DNA from: a virus
Virus record (IMG/VR): IMGVR_UViG_3300042402_002564
Location: 130,145 to 194,144 of that record
Direction: 5' to 3' (one strand)
DNA: 64,000 nucleotides
Both the position numbers and the translations under genes were made by a program. The notes beneath the pieces were generated by a model. The model worked only from the letters and a program-made list of their open reading frames with translations. It had not been told where the DNA came from and searched no databases. Position 1 is the first letter of the stretch; each line of letters opens with the position of its first letter. This document shows, piece by piece, positions 28,283 through 56,796 of the stretch.

Positions 28283-30028
28283 ATGAAAAGAATATCCGAA
28301 GATCATAAAGAAATTGCAAGTGGTAAAAGAAAAGATGATGAAGGATATATGGCTCGCAATGAAATGGATGCTATCGAAAGATCTGTTAATAAGTTAAGAA
28401 AAGTAATAAAAAAGAGTGACACTCAACTTCCTGCTTGGGTTCAATCTAAAATCACTAAAGCAGCAGATTATATTGATACTGCAGCAGAATATCTTCAAAG
28501 TGATGAAGAATTAGATGAAAATTCCATTAGTTTTACCGTAGATCCCAAAAAACTTAGATCAGATGCAAGATCTGCAAAAATAAGAACTCTTGCTCAAAAA
28601 GGTTCTACTGAAGGTGAAAGACAAGCAGCAGAAAGAAAAACAAAGGGTCCAAAATTATTTGGTGAAGATATTTCTTTGGTTGAAAAAATTCTAGGTGAAG
28701 AAAAATGTGGTAAGGGAATGTATTGGTGCAATACTGATAAAGTATGCAAACCCATACCAAAAGGATTTAATGTTGATGGGCAAAAGAAAAAACCAACAGA
28801 AGTTGGAATCGGCAAACCTGTTGGAGAAGAGAAATCTTGTAACCACACCAAAAAAGGAACTTATTGCCCCATTCATGGTAAAAATGATTGTTCTTTAAAA
28901 GAAGAAAAAGATCCTAGAGGTCCAGTAAAATCATATAAATCACCTCAAGAAATTGCTAAAAAACATGGTGTATCTTTAGAGGCAATTAAAAAACAATTAG
29001 AAATGGGTCTTGAAGTGGAAAAAGAACATACTTCAAGTAAAACTGCGGCAAGAATCACTGCATTGCAACATTTGGATGAACTTCCAGATTATTATACAAA
29101 GTTAAAAAAGGTGGAAAAAAAATCCATCAAAAATGAAAGTGTAACCGTTGAAGATATGTTTGGTAATACATTTGTTGAATTTATAGATTTGATTACACCG
29201 CAAGATGTTATTGATGAGAAAAAAATTCCTGTTACTCGTCAGGCAGGAGACTTTAGATATTCTGGAAAGACTGGGGAAGAAAAAGCAACAAATAAAGCAA
29301 AACGATTAAGTCAATCACAAAACCCTGCTGATCGTAAAAGAGCAAATAAAATCAGTAAAACTATAAAAACAGTTGCTGATCGTGATACTGCACAAGCAAG
29401 TTCTGATGCAAGGCAGGAACTTTATAGAAGACAACAAAGAAGAGCAAATGATCTTGCTAAACAGTTAAATCAACAAAAAAACAAGGTAGATGAAGCAGTA
29501 AGACTACCATCCCAAAATGGTCAATTAATGATGATTATTTTTACCTGGAGAGGCAAATCATATTCATTAAAAATGTTCTTTCCACAAGTAAAAATGCCAT
29601 CTAGAAAGGAAGTGGAATTCGAACTCCAAAAAGTATATCCTGGAGCAAGAGTTTTACAATCTCATGTAACAGATTTACGTCAAGATGGAGCACCAGTTTT
29701 ACAAATACAAAATTCTAAATCAAAAAATTATTTACTAAATAATGGAACTATTGGTGAAGAGTTAGAAGAAGATTGGCAAAAAGTCAATCGTCAAGATAAG
29801 ACTGATGGATTAAGTAAAAAAGCAGTAAAAGCATATCGCAAAGAAAATCCAGGTTCTAAACTACAAACTGCTGTAACTGAAAAAAATCCAGAAGGAAAAA
29901 GAGCAGAACGCCGTAAATCCTTTTGTAGTCGAATGAAAGGGATGAAGTCAAAATTAACTTCTTCAGATACCGCAAAAGATCCAGATAGCAATATTAATAA
30001 AGCACTAAGACGTTGGAACTGTAATTAA
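28283..30028 (+). CDS. mosaic virion/prohead-type protein with DUF5661-like region, 581 aa
   Basis: A charged multidomain protein. Visible parts: an N-terminal helical unit with QLPAWVQSKITKAADYIDTA (about 49-68) as in marine phage virion proteins; a Cys-rich knuckle CGKGMYWCNTDKVCKPIPKG (about 141-160); a second Cys/His cluster CNHTKKGTYCPIHGKNDC (about 186-203); a DUF5661-like helix set KHGVSLEAIKKQLEMGLEVE (about 228-247); a basic coiled stretch (about 340-400); a domain resembling the 40664-40984 product (KVYPGARVLQSHV, about 451-463); and a C-terminal DUF6321-like tail RRKSFCSRMKGMKSK to RRWNC. No enzymatic motif is evident. The zinc-knuckle-like clusters and basic regions suggest a DNA-associated, packaged protein (inference). 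It interrupts the usual gp16-gp17 adjacency. Confidence 0.8.
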   Translation: MKRISEDHKEIASGKRKDDEGYMARNEMDAIERSVNKLRKVIKKSDTQLPAWVQSKITKAADYIDTAAEYLQSDEELDENSISFTVDPKKLRSDARSAKIRTLAQKGSTEGERQAAERKTKGPKLFGEDISLVEKILGEEKCGKGMYWCNTDKVCKPIPKGFNVDGQKKKPTEVGIGKPVGEEKSCNHTKKGTYCPIHGKNDCSLKEEKDPRGPVKSYKSPQEIAKKHGVSLEAIKKQLEMGLEVEKEHTSSKTAARITALQHLDELPDYYTKLKKVEKKSIKNESVTVEDMFGNTFVEFIDLITPQDVIDEKKIPVTRQAGDFRYSGKTGEEKATNKAKRLSQSQNPADRKRANKISKTIKTVADRDTAQASSDARQELYRRQQRRANDLAKQLNQQKNKVDEAVRLPSQNGQLMMIIFTWRGKSYSLKMFFPQVKMPSRKEVEFELQKVYPGARVLQSHVTDLRQDGAPVLQIQNSKSKNYLLNNGTIGEELEEDWQKVNRQDKTDGLSKKAVKAYRKENPGSKLQTAVTEKNPEGKRAERRKSFCSRMKGMKSKLTSSDTAKDPDSNINKALRRWNCN

Positions 30029-35183: not shown

Positions 35184-36851
35184 ATGGCAAAATTATTTGG
35201 ATTTTCTATAGAGAATAAAGAATCTCTTTCACCTTCTGTAGTATCCCCCGTTCCTCAAAATAATGAGGACGGGGTTGATCATTATCTAACAAGTGGTTTT
35301 TTTGGATCTTATGTAGATATAGAGGGTGTTTATAGAACCGAATATGATTTAATTAAAAGATACAGAGAAATGTCACTTCACCCAGAAGTAGACAGTGCTA
35401 TTGAAGATATCGTTAATGAAGCTATTGTTAGTGACACAAACGATACTCCAGTACAAATTGAATTATCTAATTTAAATGCTAGTGATGGATTAAAAAAGAA
35501 GATAAGAGAAGAATTTAAAACAATTTTAGATTTATTAGATTTTGATAAAAAATCTCATGAAATTTATAGGAATTGGTACATTGATGGAAGACTTTATTAT
35601 CATAAAGTAATCGATTTAAAAAATCCACAAAAGGGTATTCAAGAATTAAGATATGTTGACGCATTAAAAATGCGTTATGTTAGACAATCTATTTCTAAAA
35701 AGAAGAATAATGGTGGAGTTAGAATAAAAAATTCTAACGACGAAAATCCAATGGATTATGATTTTCCACAAATTGAAGAATACTTCATCTATAATCCTAC
35801 TGCCCAATCTCCAATTGGGTCTATGAATGGAAGAAATTCTAGTCAGGCAAATTCTGGAATCAAAATTGCGAGAGATGCGATAACTTATTGTACTTCTGGA
35901 TTAGTAGATAGAAATAAAGGAACTTGTCTGTCATACTTACATAAAGCAATTAAGTCTCTCAATCAACTCCGCATGATTGAGGATAGTCTTGTTATTTACA
36001 GATTGTCTCGTGCTCCAGAGCGTCGTATCTTCTATATTGATGTAGGTAATCTTCCTAAAATTAAGGCAGAGCAATATCTTCGTGATGTTATGATGCGTTA
36101 TCGCAATAAATTAGTTTACGATGCCTCTACAGGTGAAATTAGAGATGATAAGAAGTTTATGAGTATGCTTGAGGACTTCTGGTTACCTCGTAGAGAAGGT
36201 GGTAGAGGTACAGAGATTACAACTCTTCCTGGTGGTCAGAATCTTGGAGAAATTACAGATATCAAATATTTCCAGAGTAAATTATACAAATCATTGAACG
36301 TTCCTCCATCAAGAATGGAAGGAGAAGGTGGATTTAATCTTGGTAGATCTTCAGAAATTTTGAGAGATGAACTCAAATTTACCAAATTTGTTGGTAGATT
36401 AAGGAAGCGTTTTTCAAACATGTTTAATGACATGTTAAAGACCCAATTAATATTAAAAAATATCGTAACTCCAGAAGATTGGGAGCAAATGAGTGAGCAT
36501 ATTCAATATGACTTCCTTTATGATAATCACTTCTCTGAACTAAAAGAAGCAGAATTGATGACCGAAAGGTTAAATATTGCTGCTACTGCAGAACCTTATA
36601 TCGGCAAATACTACTCTCAAGATTATGTAAGACGTAAGATTTTACGTCAAACTGATGAAGAGATTATTGAGCAAGATCAATTAATCAAAAAAGAAATTAA
36701 AGCAGGCATTATTCCAGATCCAAATGCACCAATAGACCCAGCAACTGGTATGCCAATGCCTTCTGATGCAAACCAAGATAATATTAATGGTGCATCAGGA
36801 AAAGTTCCTACAGAACCAGGGATAGATGGTTCAAGTACAGAAGTTAAGTAA
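35184..36851 (+). CDS. gp20: gp20 portal vertex protein
   Basis: Twelve-fold portal through which DNA is packaged and ejected. The 555-aa length is near T4 gp20 (524 aa). Diagnostic blocks: HPEVDSAIEDIVNEAIV (about 67-83), DGRLYYHKVID (about 131-141), IYRLSRAPERRIFYIDVGNL (about 271-290, the classic gp20 primer region), and FNLGRSSEILRDELKF (about 382-397). Codon use shifts to more GC in the middle (about 35960-36260) compared with both ends. The stop overlaps the end of the convergent radical SAM gene by 8 nt. Confidence 0.96.
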   Translation: MAKLFGFSIENKESLSPSVVSPVPQNNEDGVDHYLTSGFFGSYVDIEGVYRTEYDLIKRYREMSLHPEVDSAIEDIVNEAIVSDTNDTPVQIELSNLNASDGLKKKIREEFKTILDLLDFDKKSHEIYRNWYIDGRLYYHKVIDLKNPQKGIQELRYVDALKMRYVRQSISKKKNNGGVRIKNSNDENPMDYDFPQIEEYFIYNPTAQSPIGSMNGRNSSQANSGIKIARDAITYCTSGLVDRNKGTCLSYLHKAIKSLNQLRMIEDSLVIYRLSRAPERRIFYIDVGNLPKIKAEQYLRDVMMRYRNKLVYDASTGEIRDDKKFMSMLEDFWLPRREGGRGTEITTLPGGQNLGEITDIKYFQSKLYKSLNVPPSRMEGEGGFNLGRSSEILRDELKFTKFVGRLRKRFSNMFNDMLKTQLILKNIVTPEDWEQMSEHIQYDFLYDNHFSELKEAELMTERLNIAATAEPYIGKYYSQDYVRRKILRQTDEEIIEQDQLIKKEIKAGIIPDPNAPIDPATGMPMPSDANQDNINGASGKVPTEPGIDGSSTEVK

Positions 36852-38637
36852 CTTTAATAAATTTATTTTTTAGAAGTCCTTTTCTTCTCAGTATAAAAAG
36901 ATTATTTTTATCATATCCTATAAAGTCATTATCGATTTTATAGGATATTTTATTTTTCTCCCAAGTTTCTATATTATATTTTGAGTTTAAAGTTAATGGA
37001 TATTTTTGATTTTCATTAAAAATAAATTTTTTCTGAATATCAATAATTTCTGAGTCAATTTGTACAATATTTGAGCAATATAACTCAATAAATTCAAATA
37101 GTTTTGATTTATTTTTAAATAAGAATTCAAAACTACTAGCATGTAAAGAATGACCAGTTTTGGCACCCTGTGTTATCTTCCCAGTCTTAATATAAGTAGA
37201 GACAATATTATATATTTCTTGATAATGAACTCCAATGAATCCATCATCATTTTTTATACAGTCAAATAAATTATCATAAAATTTTCTATAACTTATATTT
37301 AAAATATTAAAGCAATATTTCGATAGCACTTGAGTATATCCCGCTATATGTAATTGAACAATCAACCATCCGTACATATAACATTCAATTAATTCATCTG
37401 TGGTTAAAGTATCGGTTTTATTAATTAATTCTATACTTTCTTTTACTTCTGAGTAATCTTTTTCATTAGTGAATGAAACGTAATCCTCTGCTTTGATAGT
37501 TTCAATACCATATATTTTTCTAGATAATTCACTGTTCAATTCACTGTTACCAAAAACTTGACAAAACCAAACATCAATAGATTCATGTTGCCCAAATTCT
37601 AATATTTTAGAGAATCCTTCCTTCCAAGAATCTATAGTTTCGTTTGGTAATCCTAAAATTAACTCGGTATAAGTTTTTACATCATGCTCTTTACTTTTTT
37701 CAATATGAGATGTAATGTTATTAATACTCATATTTTTTCTTTTAATTGCTTTAAGTGTTGGTTCATTCATACTTTGAACACTTATAGTTACACCTCTACT
37801 AATATCTCCAAGTATTTTTGCTATTTCAAAAACTACTTCTGTAGAATTTTTAGAATATTGCAAATTAACAGATTCTAATTTGCTATTATCAGCAACTTCT
37901 CTTATTAATTTTGCTATTTCCAAATCTCTTTCTTTATACATTCCAAAATTTGCATCTGCACAAAATATAAATGCAACATTATTATTTTTAATCCATTCAA
38001 GATCATTTTTTACACGATCTAGATTAAACATTTTAACTTTACTATAGGTTAATCCACCCCAATCACAAAAAGTACATGAATGGGGGCACCCTCGATTAGT
38101 TTCAATAGTAGAAGCCCAAAGAGTATTTGGATTGTCTTTTACAATTTGATCAAATACTTTAGATTCATATGGACTTGGAAAGTCTAATTGCTCTATTCTA
38201 CTTTTTTGATATATTTTTTCTATTGTTTTATTTTGAACAATACTAGTTAATAAATCTAAGTAACTTTCTTCACCTTCACCAATTATTACACAATCTATAA
38301 ATTCATTATCAAGAATTTTCAAAGTTGCTTGTGGTCCACCAAATTGAATAATACAGTCTGGAAATTTTTCTTTTATTAGTTTTGATAAAAATAGACAATA
38401 TTGCTCATTCCAAACGTAACAACTAAAACTGCACACTGTTGGATTGTCTAATCTTTCCAGTATTTTATTTGGATGCTCTCTTTTAAAGATAATATCTTTT
38501 AATACAAAATTATTTTTTACTTCATCAAATTGATTACAATAACTCCATAAACAACCAACACTGTAAGGAAGCCAATATGTGTCTTCATTTCTAATTTCTA
38601 CAGAATATTGCGGTTGAAATAAATATATATTTTTCAT
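36844..38637 (-). CDS. B12-binding-type radical SAM protein (downstream copy), 597 aa
   Basis: Probable iron-sulfur enzyme that cleaves S-adenosylmethionine to a radical. The radical SAM motif is CPHSCTFC, Cys184, Cys188 and Cys191. The first about 150 residues look like a cobalamin-binding Rossmann domain (SFSCYVWNEQY at about 70-80, QFGGPQA at 98-104, VIIGEGEESY at 117-126) but lack the DxHxxG cobalt-ligand motif, as many class B enzymes do. SAM-pocket-type strands follow (VNLQYSKNSTEVV, ITISVQSMNEPTLKAIKRK, TYTELILGLPNETIDSW). The C-terminal about 200 residues are unassigned and end LRRKGLLKN. The start codon overlaps the stop of the upstream paralog (ATGA). Substrate unknown; methylation, thiolation or peptide modification are all possible. 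Confidence 0.85.
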   Translation of the reverse strand: MKNIYLFQPQYSVEIRNEDTYWLPYSVGCLWSYCNQFDEVKNNFVLKDIIFKREHPNKILERLDNPTVCSFSCYVWNEQYCLFLSKLIKEKFPDCIIQFGGPQATLKILDNEFIDCVIIGEGEESYLDLLTSIVQNKTIEKIYQKSRIEQLDFPSPYESKVFDQIVKDNPNTLWASTIETNRGCPHSCTFCDWGGLTYSKVKMFNLDRVKNDLEWIKNNNVAFIFCADANFGMYKERDLEIAKLIREVADNSKLESVNLQYSKNSTEVVFEIAKILGDISRGVTISVQSMNEPTLKAIKRKNMSINNITSHIEKSKEHDVKTYTELILGLPNETIDSWKEGFSKILEFGQHESIDVWFCQVFGNSELNSELSRKIYGIETIKAEDYVSFTNEKDYSEVKESIELINKTDTLTTDELIECYMYGWLIVQLHIAGYTQVLSKYCFNILNISYRKFYDNLFDCIKNDDGFIGVHYQEIYNIVSTYIKTGKITQGAKTGHSLHASSFEFLFKNKSKLFEFIELYCSNIVQIDSEIIDIQKKFIFNENQKYPLTLNSKYNIETWEKNKISYKIDNDFIGYDKNNLFILRRKGLLKNKFIKVT

Positions 38638-40442
38638 TCATCAATTTTAGATATAGTATTTTTTAGTAATCCCTTTCTTCTTAAAACCCAAAAATCATTT
38701 CGTATTGACTCATCTCTTTTATTTGAAACCATTAAACTTGTTGGTTTATCTTCCCATGTTGTTGTATCAACAGAAGAAGAAATAGTAATAGGATAATCTA
38801 CCTCAGAGTCATAAACAAAGTTTTTTTGAAGATCCCAAAATTCATTAGTTATACCACCAAATTTTACCAGAGATTTATCAATTAAGGCAAATACTTCATT
38901 CCTATTATTCATAAAAAATGAAAAATCATTAGGAGAATTAAATTCTAATGAATGTCCACTTTTATTATCTGGTAAAATTCCCTCTGTTAAGTAATTTTTT
39001 ACATCGAACTTTAATTTTTGAAAATATTCACCAATTATTCCGTTGTCAGTTTGAACCTTTTCAAATATTTCATCATAAAACATCCTATAAGTTATATTTT
39101 TATTGTAAAAAAGATATTTTGCTATTAGTTGAGCATATCCATTTATATGGAATTGTATTACTGTCCAAGCATACAAATAACTTTCAATTAATTCCAAAGT
39201 TGCCATTGAATTAGTTTTATTAACTATCTCAACAATTTCTTTGAATCCATGATATTCCTTAGGATTAGTGAATGAAATATAGTCATACGCCTTTACTGTT
39301 TCAATTCCGTGCATCTTTCTAGATAATTCACTTCCCAATTCACTATTACCAAATAATTGGCAGAACCAAACATCAATCGATTCGTGTTGACCACACTCCA
39401 AAACTTTAGATAATCCGTCTTTCCAAGTTTCTAAAGTTTCCTCGGGTAATGGCAAAATCAGTTCAGTGTATGTTTTAACTCCATATTCTTGACTCATTCT
39501 CATATGATTAGTCAAATCATTTATATGAAGATTCTTTCTCTTAATAGCCTTCAAAGTTGGTTGATTCATACTTTGAACGCTAATTGTTATTCCCCTAAGA
39601 CAATGTTCTTCAAGTATTTTTGCAATTTTAAATACTGCTTCTGTTGAATTCTTAGCAAATTGTAAAACAACGTCACCAACATTGGTTTCTTTTAATTTGT
39701 CTCTGATTATCTCTGCTATAAGTATATCTCGCTCCTTATACATTCCAAAATTAGCATCAGCAACAAATAAGTATCCAATATTATTATTTTTTATCCAAGT
39801 AATATCATCTTCAACTCTCTTTATGTCGAAGTGGTCTACTTTACTCATAGTAGTTCCACCCCAATCACAAAAAGTGCATCTATGAGGACAACCTCTATTT
39901 GTTTCTATAGTTGCAGCCCAAATTACATCGGGATTTTCTTCAATTATTTTACTAAAGACATTAGATTGATATGGACTTGGATAATCTAATGTAGATAATC
40001 TAGTTCTCTCGTAATATTTTTTTATTTCTTTGTTTTCTATAATAGAATTAAGTATGTCTAGAAAATTTTCTTCACCCTCAGAAATTATTACAGTATCAAT
40101 AAAATCATTTTCCTCTTGCATTTTTTTAGATGCTTGAGGTCCACCAAATTCGATAATGCAATTTGGAAATTTTTCTTTTACGAGTTTAGCTATTCCTAGA
40201 CAATACTGTTCATTCCAAATATAACAACTAAATCCACATAAAACAGGATTATCCAATCTTTCTAATATTTTATCTGGATGTTCTCTTTTAAAAATTATAT
40301 CCTTTAAAATAAAATTATTTTTTACTTCATCAAATTGATTACAATAACTCCAAATACATCCAACACTATATGGTATCCAATAATTTTCTTGTTTTCTAAC
40401 TTCTACAGAATATTGTGGTTGAAATAAATATATGTTTTTCAT
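38634..40442 (-). CDS. B12-binding-type radical SAM protein (upstream copy), 602 aa
   Basis: First gene of the minus-strand pair and a clear paralog of the 36844-38637 product: the N-termini are nearly identical (KNIYLFQPQYSVE) and both end LRRKGLLKN. The cluster is CPHRCTFC at Cys185, Cys189, Cys192. As in its partner, a cobalamin-type domain precedes the radical SAM barrel and no DxHxxG is seen. The start at 40442 is chosen because it aligns with the paralog's first residue. A start 11 codons upstream (40475) would lie inside the palindromic promoter. Whether the two act as a heterodimer or on two substrates is unknown. Confidence 0.85.
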   Translation of the reverse strand: MKNIYLFQPQYSVEVRKQENYWIPYSVGCIWSYCNQFDEVKNNFILKDIIFKREHPDKILERLDNPVLCGFSCYIWNEQYCLGIAKLVKEKFPNCIIEFGGPQASKKMQEENDFIDTVIISEGEENFLDILNSIIENKEIKKYYERTRLSTLDYPSPYQSNVFSKIIEENPDVIWAATIETNRGCPHRCTFCDWGGTTMSKVDHFDIKRVEDDITWIKNNNIGYLFVADANFGMYKERDILIAEIIRDKLKETNVGDVVLQFAKNSTEAVFKIAKILEEHCLRGITISVQSMNQPTLKAIKRKNLHINDLTNHMRMSQEYGVKTYTELILPLPEETLETWKDGLSKVLECGQHESIDVWFCQLFGNSELGSELSRKMHGIETVKAYDYISFTNPKEYHGFKEIVEIVNKTNSMATLELIESYLYAWTVIQFHINGYAQLIAKYLFYNKNITYRMFYDEIFEKVQTDNGIIGEYFQKLKFDVKNYLTEGILPDNKSGHSLEFNSPNDFSFFMNNRNEVFALIDKSLVKFGGITNEFWDLQKNFVYDSEVDYPITISSSVDTTTWEDKPTSLMVSNKRDESIRNDFWVLRRKGLLKNTISKIDE

Positions 40443-40465: not shown

Positions 40466-40480
40466 TATTTATCATAAATA
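40466..40480. promoter_or_regulatory. palindromic, probably bidirectional late promoter
   Basis: TATTTATCATAAATA is an inverted repeat with 7-bp arms around one C. Read on + it offers CATAAATA, on - GATAAATA, both near the TATAAATA late consensus. The + box ends 24 nt before the ATG at 40504 and the - box ends 24 nt before the ATG at 40442, matching the 22-29 nt seen at other late boxes here. Confidence 0.6.
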
Positions 40481-40503: not shown

Positions 40504-40662
40504 ATGGACGAACTTTTAGATATGATTATCTCTGACGAATCACCTGCACAAGTCAGTGATAAAATTAAAGAACTTCTTTTCGCAAAATCTGCGGATAAAA
40601 TTGAAGCATTGAGACCAGCAGCAGGAAATTCATTATTTGGGAATCAAGAAGAGGTAGGATGA
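40504..40662 (+). CDS. small head protein, gp67-like by position, 52 aa
   Basis: Short frame beginning MDELLDMIISDESPAQVSDK with a helical middle (IKELLFAKSADKIEALRP) and a Gly/Asn tail. It lies after the portal, where T4 has the small prohead-core gene 67, and it resembles in general layout the N-terminus of T4 gp67. The call rests on synteny and composition. Other marine T4-like phages carry a similar small protein here. It is 24 nt behind the palindromic late box and two bases before the next gene. Confidence 0.65.
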   Translation: MDELLDMIISDESPAQVSDKIKELLFAKSADKIEALRPAAGNSLFGNQEEVG

Positions 40663-42950: not shown

Positions 42951-43220
42951 ATGCAAGTAACAAAACCACTTTCTATAGAAACTGATTTAGCAACTTCTTC
43001 TGGTGCTGGAACAAGTATACTTTCTGCAACATGCGTAAGATTATATAATGGAGCTGGTGCAGCAACTACAATTGCAATTTCAGCATCTGTTGGGGCGAGT
43101 GCATCTTATTCATTTACTTTACCATCTGGTGCTGTTGAATTTATACAAAAATTACCCACTGATATTATCTGGGCTTCAGCATCATCTATAAAAGTAACAA
43201 AAGTAGGATTTACTAACTAA
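42951..43220 (+). CDS. small structural-type hypothetical protein, 89 aa
   Basis: Ala/Ser/Thr/Gly-rich, beta-type protein starting MQVTKPLSIETDLATSSGAG, with CVRLYNGAG (about 28-36) and a strand-rich end (AVEFIQKLPTDIIWASASSI). Short proteins with this look occur among virion genes of marine phages and could be decoration proteins, but I recognise no defined function. It is headed by a perfect late box and followed 5 nt later by gp21, so it is made late with the head genes. Confidence 0.65.
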   Translation: MQVTKPLSIETDLATSSGAGTSILSATCVRLYNGAGAATTIAISASVGASASYSFTLPSGAVEFIQKLPTDIIWASASSIKVTKVGFTN

Positions 43221-55613: not shown

Positions 55614-55677
55614 CCACTGAGAACCTTTCAGAACCAATTTTACCCTTATAATTATTGAGTTGAACAAACACATCGTT

Positions 55678-56796
55678 ATGACACTTTCTTCTGATTACAT
55701 CCGCACCTCTCTTCAAAATCTTTATGGCAACAACATCACCAGTGCCGATGTTCGTGCTTGGTGTAGTATGAATGATACTAATTACCAAACTGTTACTAAT
55801 AAAATTTATCAATATAAAACTGGTCATGGTAAATGGAATCTTGAAGTGACTCAACAAAAAGTGGAAGAAATCGAACGTACTTATCAAGCACCCGCAGTGG
55901 TTCCTCCTGTAGAGCAAAATCTCATTCCTGATAAAGATGATACCTTCGTCAAGTTTGGTAATTTTAACGATATTAAACGCATTATTCAGTCCAATCTCTT
56001 TTATCCTACGTTCATTACGGGTCTTTCGGGTAATGGTAAAACGTTCAGTGTTGAGCAAGCGTGTGCTCAACTTAAGCGTGAATTGATTCGTGTAAACATT
56101 ACAATTGAAACTGATGAAGACGACCTTATCGGTGGATTCCGCCTTGTTGATGGAAATACCGCTTGGCATAACGGTCCCGTTATTGAGGCACTGGAACGAG
56201 GAGCAATCCTTCTCCTTGATGAAATCGACCTTGCATCTAACAAAATCCTGTGTCTTCAATCCATCCTTGAAGGCAAAGGTGTTTTCCTGAAAAAGATTGG
56301 TCGCTGGGTAAAACCCGCTGCTGGGTTTAACGTGATTGCCACCGCAAACACCAAGGGTAAAGGTTCTGATGATGGACGTTTCATCGGCACCAACGTGCTC
56401 AACGAAGCATTCCTGGAGCGTTTCCCTGTGACCTTCGAGCAGTCCTATCCCGCCCCAGCAACTGAGCAGAAAATCCTTGAGGGGGTCGCTCTGGACCTTG
56501 GAGTAGAGGATCGTGACTTCTGCAAGCGTCTGGTGGACTGGGGTGATATCATCCGCAAGACCTTCTACGATGGTGGTATTGAAGAAATCATTAGCACCCG
56601 TCGTCTGGTTCATATCATCCGTGCTTACAGCATCTTCCAGGATAAAGCAAAGGCAATCCAAGTTTGTGTCAATCGTTTTGATGACGAAACTAAGCAAGCA
56701 TTCCTTGAACTTTATGACAAGGTTGATGCTGACTTCCAGATGCCTAAAGAATATGAGCATGTAACTTACGACCTTGACCAACAAACTCAATCCTGA
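55678..56796 (+). CDS. cobS: CobS-like MoxR-family AAA+ ATPase
   Basis: AAA+ ATPase of 372 aa. Walker A is in GLSGNGKTFS (about 115-124), Walker B ILLLDEIDL (about 178-186), and a sensor-1 strand VIATANTKGKG follows. CobS in bacteria is the ATPase of the aerobic cobaltochelatase, working with CobT and CobN. Cyanophages carry CobS-like genes widely, and a boost to host cobalamin synthesis has been suggested, not proved. The start is the ATG at 55678; an upstream in-frame TTG (55660) is unlikely. The second half of the gene is clearly richer in GC than its first third. It ends at a terminator. Confidence 0.9.
   Translation: MTLSSDYIRTSLQNLYGNNITSADVRAWCSMNDTNYQTVTNKIYQYKTGHGKWNLEVTQQKVEEIERTYQAPAVVPPVEQNLIPDKDDTFVKFGNFNDIKRIIQSNLFYPTFITGLSGNGKTFSVEQACAQLKRELIRVNITIETDEDDLIGGFRLVDGNTAWHNGPVIEALERGAILLLDEIDLASNKILCLQSILEGKGVFLKKIGRWVKPAAGFNVIATANTKGKGSDDGRFIGTNVLNEAFLERFPVTFEQSYPAPATEQKILEGVALDLGVEDRDFCKRLVDWGDIIRKTFYDGGIEEIISTRRLVHIIRAYSIFQDKAKAIQVCVNRFDDETKQAFLELYDKVDADFQMPKEYEHVTYDLDQQTQS

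Follow-up and report, generated by a model that had tools for sequence, protein, structure and literature searches.

In a virus that we assign to the T4-like cyanophages, two adjoining antisense genes, A and B, separate the portal gene gp20 from a gp67-like prohead-core gene. By sequence and predicted structure their products belong to the class-1 cobalamin (Cbl)-dependent radical-SAM (rSAM) enzymes. In the reading we favour, and which we rate as somewhat better than even, they are two C-methyltransferases made from a late antisense operon at gp20|gp67 and acting on two sugars of a phage-encoded glycan, or at two positions in it. If this is true, a phage C-methylates unactivated sugar carbons, a chemistry best known from antibiotic pathways, at the expense of host B12.

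An antisense gene pair after gp20

The window, meaning the whole 64-kb stretch analysed here, spans G000:C1:130145-194144 in a virus record of 246,502 bases. In this record PF00124 (Photo_RC) matches two genes, in line with psbA/psbD, and gp20 is nearest to those of Synechococcus/Prochlorococcus T4-like phages, which marks the record as that of a cyanophage on sequence grounds. Gene A (38634..40442, minus strand) encodes 602 aa and gene B (36844..38637, minus strand) 597 aa, and a 4-bp ATGA start/stop overlap joins them (38634..38637, minus strand). The 3' end of B overlaps that of the convergent gp20 (35184..36851, plus strand) by 8 bp, and on the other side the cassette is bordered by a 52-aa gp67-like ORF (40504..40662, plus strand), named by its position. 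An in-frame ATG lies upstream of A at 40475; the start common to the homologues is 40442. The two proteins are 58% identical across 601 aa and both contain RGCPHxCTFCDWGG. A sequence-only reading of this DNA had described them as clear duplicates linked by an ATGA overlap and lying among head genes, as we also find. It further held that they were the only minus-strand genes in the 64 kb. This is borne out for credible genes, since all other minus-strand ORFs of at least 80 aa in the window overlap plus-strand genes; the record has further minus-strand genes outside the window. Of its statement that the pair splits gp20 from gp21, the insertion directly after gp20 stands, but the adjoining gene on the gp21 side is the gp67-like ORF.

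The motif NATAAATA, of T4-late type, has only two minus-strand occurrences in the 64 kb. One of these copies, GATAAATA (40466..40473, minus strand), lies 31 nt before the start codon of A, in agreement with the late-type promoter proposed earlier, and is retained in the close relative L006. A divergent CATAAATA (40473..40480, plus strand) faces the gp67-like gene. The motif NATAAATA also precedes the ORF at 28283, gp18, gp20, gp22 and the ORF at 42951, at distances of 29-48 nt. An Rfam search around the A/B locus gave no match to an RNA element.

The same locus recurs in related phages. From gp20 to the gp67-like gene, the gap measures 24-823 nt (median 55) in 71 cassette-free contigs and 1.7-6.7 kb in 15 contigs with rSAM genes, these being counts of contigs and not of independent events, as some are near-duplicates. 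The cassette is antisense to gp20 in every one of the 15 and comprises between one and three rSAM copies. It is carried by about 6 of the 80 contigs with the nearest portals. Many relatives have a GT25-type glycosyltransferase (phrog_2835 glucosyltransferase match, E 3e-33) directly upstream of A and an extra 220-aa gene between B and gp20. This extra gene (L016:11505-12167 and relatives) is conserved and overlaps the 3' end of B convergently by about 50 nt. An HxD..H..R pattern had made it a candidate 2OG-Fe(II) oxygenase, but neither Pfam and PDB searches nor a structure prediction (pLDDT 37) bore this out. If our interpretation is right, gp20|gp67 is a late, antisense cargo site in T4-like cyanophages.

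Enzyme class and divergence of the two copies

Pfam Radical_SAM (PF04055) matches both proteins (E 8e-15 for A, 8e-14 for B), with the Cx3Cx2C [4Fe-4S] motif (C185, C189, C192) in the radical-SAM barrel. The Pfam B12-binding profile, also proposed earlier as a check, matches weakly and under its cut-off (3e-4 and 1e-5 for A and B). The top NCBIfam profile is NF033712 B12_rSAM_KedN5, for KedN5-type methylcobalamin-dependent C-methyltransferases (E 1e-48 for A, 1e-46 for B); the scores of 165.8 and 159.2 bits are far under its curated cut-off of 700, and on this sequence comparison we treat A and B as relatives, not members, of the KedN5 subfamily. Close kinship with HpnR, BchE or MiaB was rejected because their NCBIfam scores are far lower.

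The nearest solved structures are TokK (phmmer E 2e-63 for A, 9e-68 for B) and CysS. An AlphaFold2 model of A, built from a 37-sequence alignment (pLDDT 88, pTM 0.89), matches TokK in Foldseek with a TM of 0.84 (E 3e-43) over about 630 columns, the C-terminal domain included, and CysS with a TM of 0.75; TsrM, OxsB and MiaB score far lower. The model divides into a Rossmann Cbl domain (residues ~1-165), a radical-SAM domain (~175-400) and a C-terminal helical domain (~410-602), and B has the same domains. Residues W76, C185, C189 and C192 are invariant across the 37 aligned homologues, and B retains both W76 and the cluster motif. W76 aligns with TokK Trp76 and CysS Trp75, which sit at the lower cobalt face of a base-off, His-off site (PMC13331322, PMC12846815), so that the lack of DxHxxG is what one would expect. 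Together with the model alignment, W76 indicates an N-terminal Rossmann cobalamin domain of the base-off/His-off type, in which cobalamin binding is predicted. The sequence-only reading had already paired a cobalamin-type N-terminus without DxHxxG with a CxxxCxxC cluster in a shared setting, and profiles, fold and W76 confirm that class. It had left the long C-terminus unassigned. A long C-terminal domain is there, but the full-length structural match of the A model, good to TokK and CysS and poor to the others, now assigns it to the TokK/CysS type. By sequence and this confident model, A and B are thus class-1 enzymes, and A is a predicted Cbl-dependent rSAM methyltransferase of the TokK/CysS type. 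At the enzyme level this speaks against an undescribed system, as had been suggested, since the branch of the superfamily is known and tandem arrays exist in gut Clostridia.

In a tree of both copies and their homologues, the first copies of the relatives and A form one group (support 98/98) and the second copies and B another (93/91), the third copy of L012/L013 falling on the A side. This separate clustering indicates that the duplication predates the divergence of these phages and that the A-B order has been retained. The cluster and cobalamin residues are intact in both proteins, and pairwise dN/dS (omega) is 0.04-0.09 among orthologues of both lineages, indicating strong purifying selection on both copies; a loss of residues betraying the decay of one copy is not seen. 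One fixed difference between the lineages, V259 in A and N258 in B, falls at the aligned position of CysS Trp271 and TokK R280. The residues of TokK and CysS are thus not found here, and V259 and N258 are each fixed within their lineage. In CysS, Trp271 is in contact with the substrate and acts as a gate to the active site (PMC12846815). Long-retained orthologous pairs and a paralogue-specific change at a substrate-gate position favour different substrates or positions for A and B rather than redundancy, and the earlier suggestion of two substrates probably holds in this form.

Glycan genes around the pair and elsewhere in the phage

About 28 kb beyond A/B and outside the window, the same phage has a late-motif glycan operon (L119:4433-14664 = G000:C1:198577-208808). 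Its products are a 359-aa protein without assignment, a 176-aa oxygenase-like protein, a sulfotransferase, a minimal DegT, six GT25-like proteins, an inosamine-phosphate amidinotransferase homologue and a UDP-glucose/GDP-mannose dehydrogenase. A perfect TATAAATA stands 32 nt upstream of its first gene, L119:4433, and the motifs suggest that A-B and the operon are co-expressed late. The amidinotransferase (L119:12470-13444) is placed in the inosamine-phosphate/AGAT type by a full-length match and by its invariant D158, H210 and C316, which correspond to the catalytic Asp, His and Cys of AGAT. In hmmsearch its profile matched the StrB1-type PDB 1bwd over positions 2-320 (E 1.2e-95), with arginine:glycine amidinotransferase well behind (1e-54). 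The 176-aa oxygenase-like protein matched PF05118 at E 0.007, under the cut-off, and a PDB search with it gave no match. In four contigs this domain lies inside a protein of about 600 aa (L142:7522-9345, L143:7558-9330, L149:7577-9418, L150:7563-9347), suggesting a fused second activity. The triad of DegT, amidinotransferase and oxygenase-like genes recurs across many viral contigs (L138-L157) and is also found in the cultured Synechococcus phage S-SCSM2R (PQ898602.1).

In S-SCSM2R the homologous operon has a minimal DegT (58%), an inosamine amidinotransferase (65%), GT25 and a 2OG-oxygenase, with the annotations 'inosamine amidinotransferase' and '3-amino-5-hydroxybenzoic acid synthase', and it contains a short radical-SAM gene belonging to a different type. 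A search of the S-SCSM2R genome found no TokK-like gene anywhere. The glycan operon therefore exists without the pair, and the pair most plausibly supplies an extra tailoring step.

Sugar genes also stand beside the rSAM genes themselves. A GT25 gene adjoins the pair in eight relatives (L008, L009, L010, L012, L013, L015, L016, L023), and the gene of the window's phage most similar to it, at 45% identity, belongs to the operon (L119:9920-10825). Single-copy homologues in L018, L019, L020 and L022 abut or lie near a minimal DegT-type aminotransferase of about 200 aa, with epimerase, MocA, ADH or GTP-cyclohydrolase genes nearby. A GTP cyclohydrolase I gene (L022:9821-10567, L018:5967-6662, L019:9821-10570) follows the single-copy rSAM gene directly or lies close to it. 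Both G000 and G001 have a homologue of the minimal DegT, the one in G000 being 47% identical to the L020 copy. A reciprocal DegT scan returned 16 non-redundant contigs, 13 of them with an amidinotransferase gene. In seven, an rSAM gene of the B12 type lies no more than 6 kb away, TokK-like in three cases and of a more distant B12-rSAM type in four. A second, more distant family of B12-binding radical-SAM proteins in phages (~690-770 aa; L018:7833-9896, L142-L157) is encoded upstream of or near DegT/amidinotransferase genes. Around L024-L030, 10 of 42 neighbours are epimerase/GDP-mannose-dehydratase genes, and DegT, glycosyltransferase and dTDP-sugar epimerase genes also occur. Among empty-site control records, most of them fragments, a DegT or rSAM gene was found in none of 14.

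A single-protein scan of bacterial genomes found nothing, and an alignment query of them returned 78 loci. In gut Clostridia, TokK-like B12 radical-SAM genes form arrays of two to seven copies (L034-L111, e.g. L037, L047, L063, L077) interleaved with GT2 genes; four neighbours inspected singly were all GT2. Of the 288 genes lying no more than two positions from an rSAM copy, 37 are GT2-like, versus 5 of 388 farther away, a biased comparison, as the profile was made from neighbours and many loci are related. Overall, the neighbourhood points to a glycan rather than directly to either of the targets proposed earlier, a virion protein or host metabolism just before lysis.

Competing interpretations and known counterparts

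The mechanism we favour would run as follows. A and B would be expressed late in infection from a single antisense operon in the gp20|gp67 gap. Both enzymes would take host (pseudo)cobalamin and SAM and C-methylate two sugars, or two positions of one glycan, the acceptor being assembled by the late GT25/DegT/amidinotransferase operon downstream. The modified glycan would then be displayed on the virion or the host surface. This explanation is weakened by the distance of the pair from the glycan operon, by S-SCSM2R having DegT, amidinotransferase and GT25 yet no TokK-like gene, by the more distant type of most rSAM neighbours in the DegT scan and by the bias in the bacterial GT2 enrichment. B12-rSAM enzymes are not all methylating, OxsB being an example, and oxygen-sensitive enzymes would have to work in an oxygenic host, both of which count against it. 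A broader picture, which we find doubtful, is that large cyanophages make a late aminoglycoside-like decoration. An amino sugar or cyclitol would be guanidinylated (StrB-type), hydroxylated, GT25-linked and C-methylated at two sites by the B12 radical-SAM pair of a head-gene insertion hotspot; the product would coat the virion or alter the host surface, and the phage would consume host cobalamin.

The late-type promoter and the location among head genes could also mean that A and B directly C-methylate a virion protein late, for example one of the capsid or portal region, with no glycan involved. Peptide- or protein-acting B12-rSAM enzymes exist, and RiPP C-methyltransferases and TIGR04014 are among the weaker NCBIfam matches. 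We nevertheless consider this unlikely: TokK and CysS act on small molecules, the phage and bacterial neighbours are glycosyltransferases and sugar enzymes, and the cassette, being absent from most close relatives that share these head genes, is dispensable for assembly. It also seems improbable that the pair serves as an auxiliary metabolic function on a host lipid, tetrapyrrole or secondary metabolite. Pigment and photosynthesis genes are common in cyanophages, two Photo_RC genes are present here and there are lipid, hopanoid and BchE-type NCBIfam matches; these matches are well under cut-off and mostly to the shared radical-SAM core, however, and the examined loci associate glycan genes and no lipid or tetrapyrrole gene with the pair.

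DNA is glycosylated in T4 relatives, and glycosyltransferase, oxygenase-like and DNA methyltransferase genes are all present, as would fit the pair hypermodifying phage DNA, along with glycosyltransferases and oxygenases, against host restriction. That role for the pair is very unlikely, given that the glycosyltransferases match the GT25 LPS type, that DegT and amidinotransferase fit sugar building and that G000 and G001 encode no protein of the dCMP-hydroxymethylase/thymidylate-synthase fold; hydroxymethyl-C modification was rejected for want of a PF00303 protein in either. The patchy occurrence of the cassette might suggest a functionless passenger, recently gained and decaying, but the low omega of orthologue pairs of both copies, the retained catalytic residues, an A-B order older than these phages and the promoter motif kept in L006 make this hardly credible.

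A link to B12 supply may exist within the window through the cobS-like AAA ATPase gene of cyanomyophages (phrog_249; 55660..56796, plus strand). Its PD_CobS match is far under the cut-off and true CobS homology has been doubted (PMC5083919); the gene is almost always present in this phage group, with its role unassigned (PMC9983427). The adjoining 53248-55431 matches a phrog_459 peptidase and, weakly, the cobalamin-biosynthesis phrog_5298. If the favoured mechanism is true, it gives the phage group with this gene a B12-consuming role that can be tested, the cobS link being a suggestion only. The enzyme class is known, the phage setting is new and the combination is probably new. In open-licence full-text literature we found no description of a phage Cbl-dependent radical-SAM or cyanophage amidinotransferase system of this kind, and among 50,697 records of annotated phage genomes there was no close homologue and one weak 27% match.

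Of known systems, the closest in structure are TokK (Streptomyces, asparenomycin; PDB 7kdx/7kdy) and CysS (PDB 9n1b), KedN5-type Cbl-dependent rSAM methyltransferases with the three-domain architecture and full-length fold of A. They share with A and B the Cx3Cx2C motif, the Trp under the cobalt and the base-off/His-off site without DxHxxG. Structure-based identity between A and TokK is 23%, the R280/Trp271 position differs, and the TokK and CysS substrates are antibiotic intermediates, not known sugars. For two sugars the precedent is GenK and GenD1, two Cbl-dependent rSAM C-methyltransferases of one pathway that methylate different gentamicin sugars (PMC4340712), proposed here as a functional analogy. 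Among T4-like marine phages, pelagimyophages have host-recognition islands with glycan/LPS genes, for which a change of the host surface was proposed, and radical-SAM cassettes have been mentioned there already, as additions by which two genomes differ (PMC7029224). Those cassettes lie in the host-recognition cluster, whereas here a TokK-like antisense pair sits exactly in the gp20|gp67 junction.
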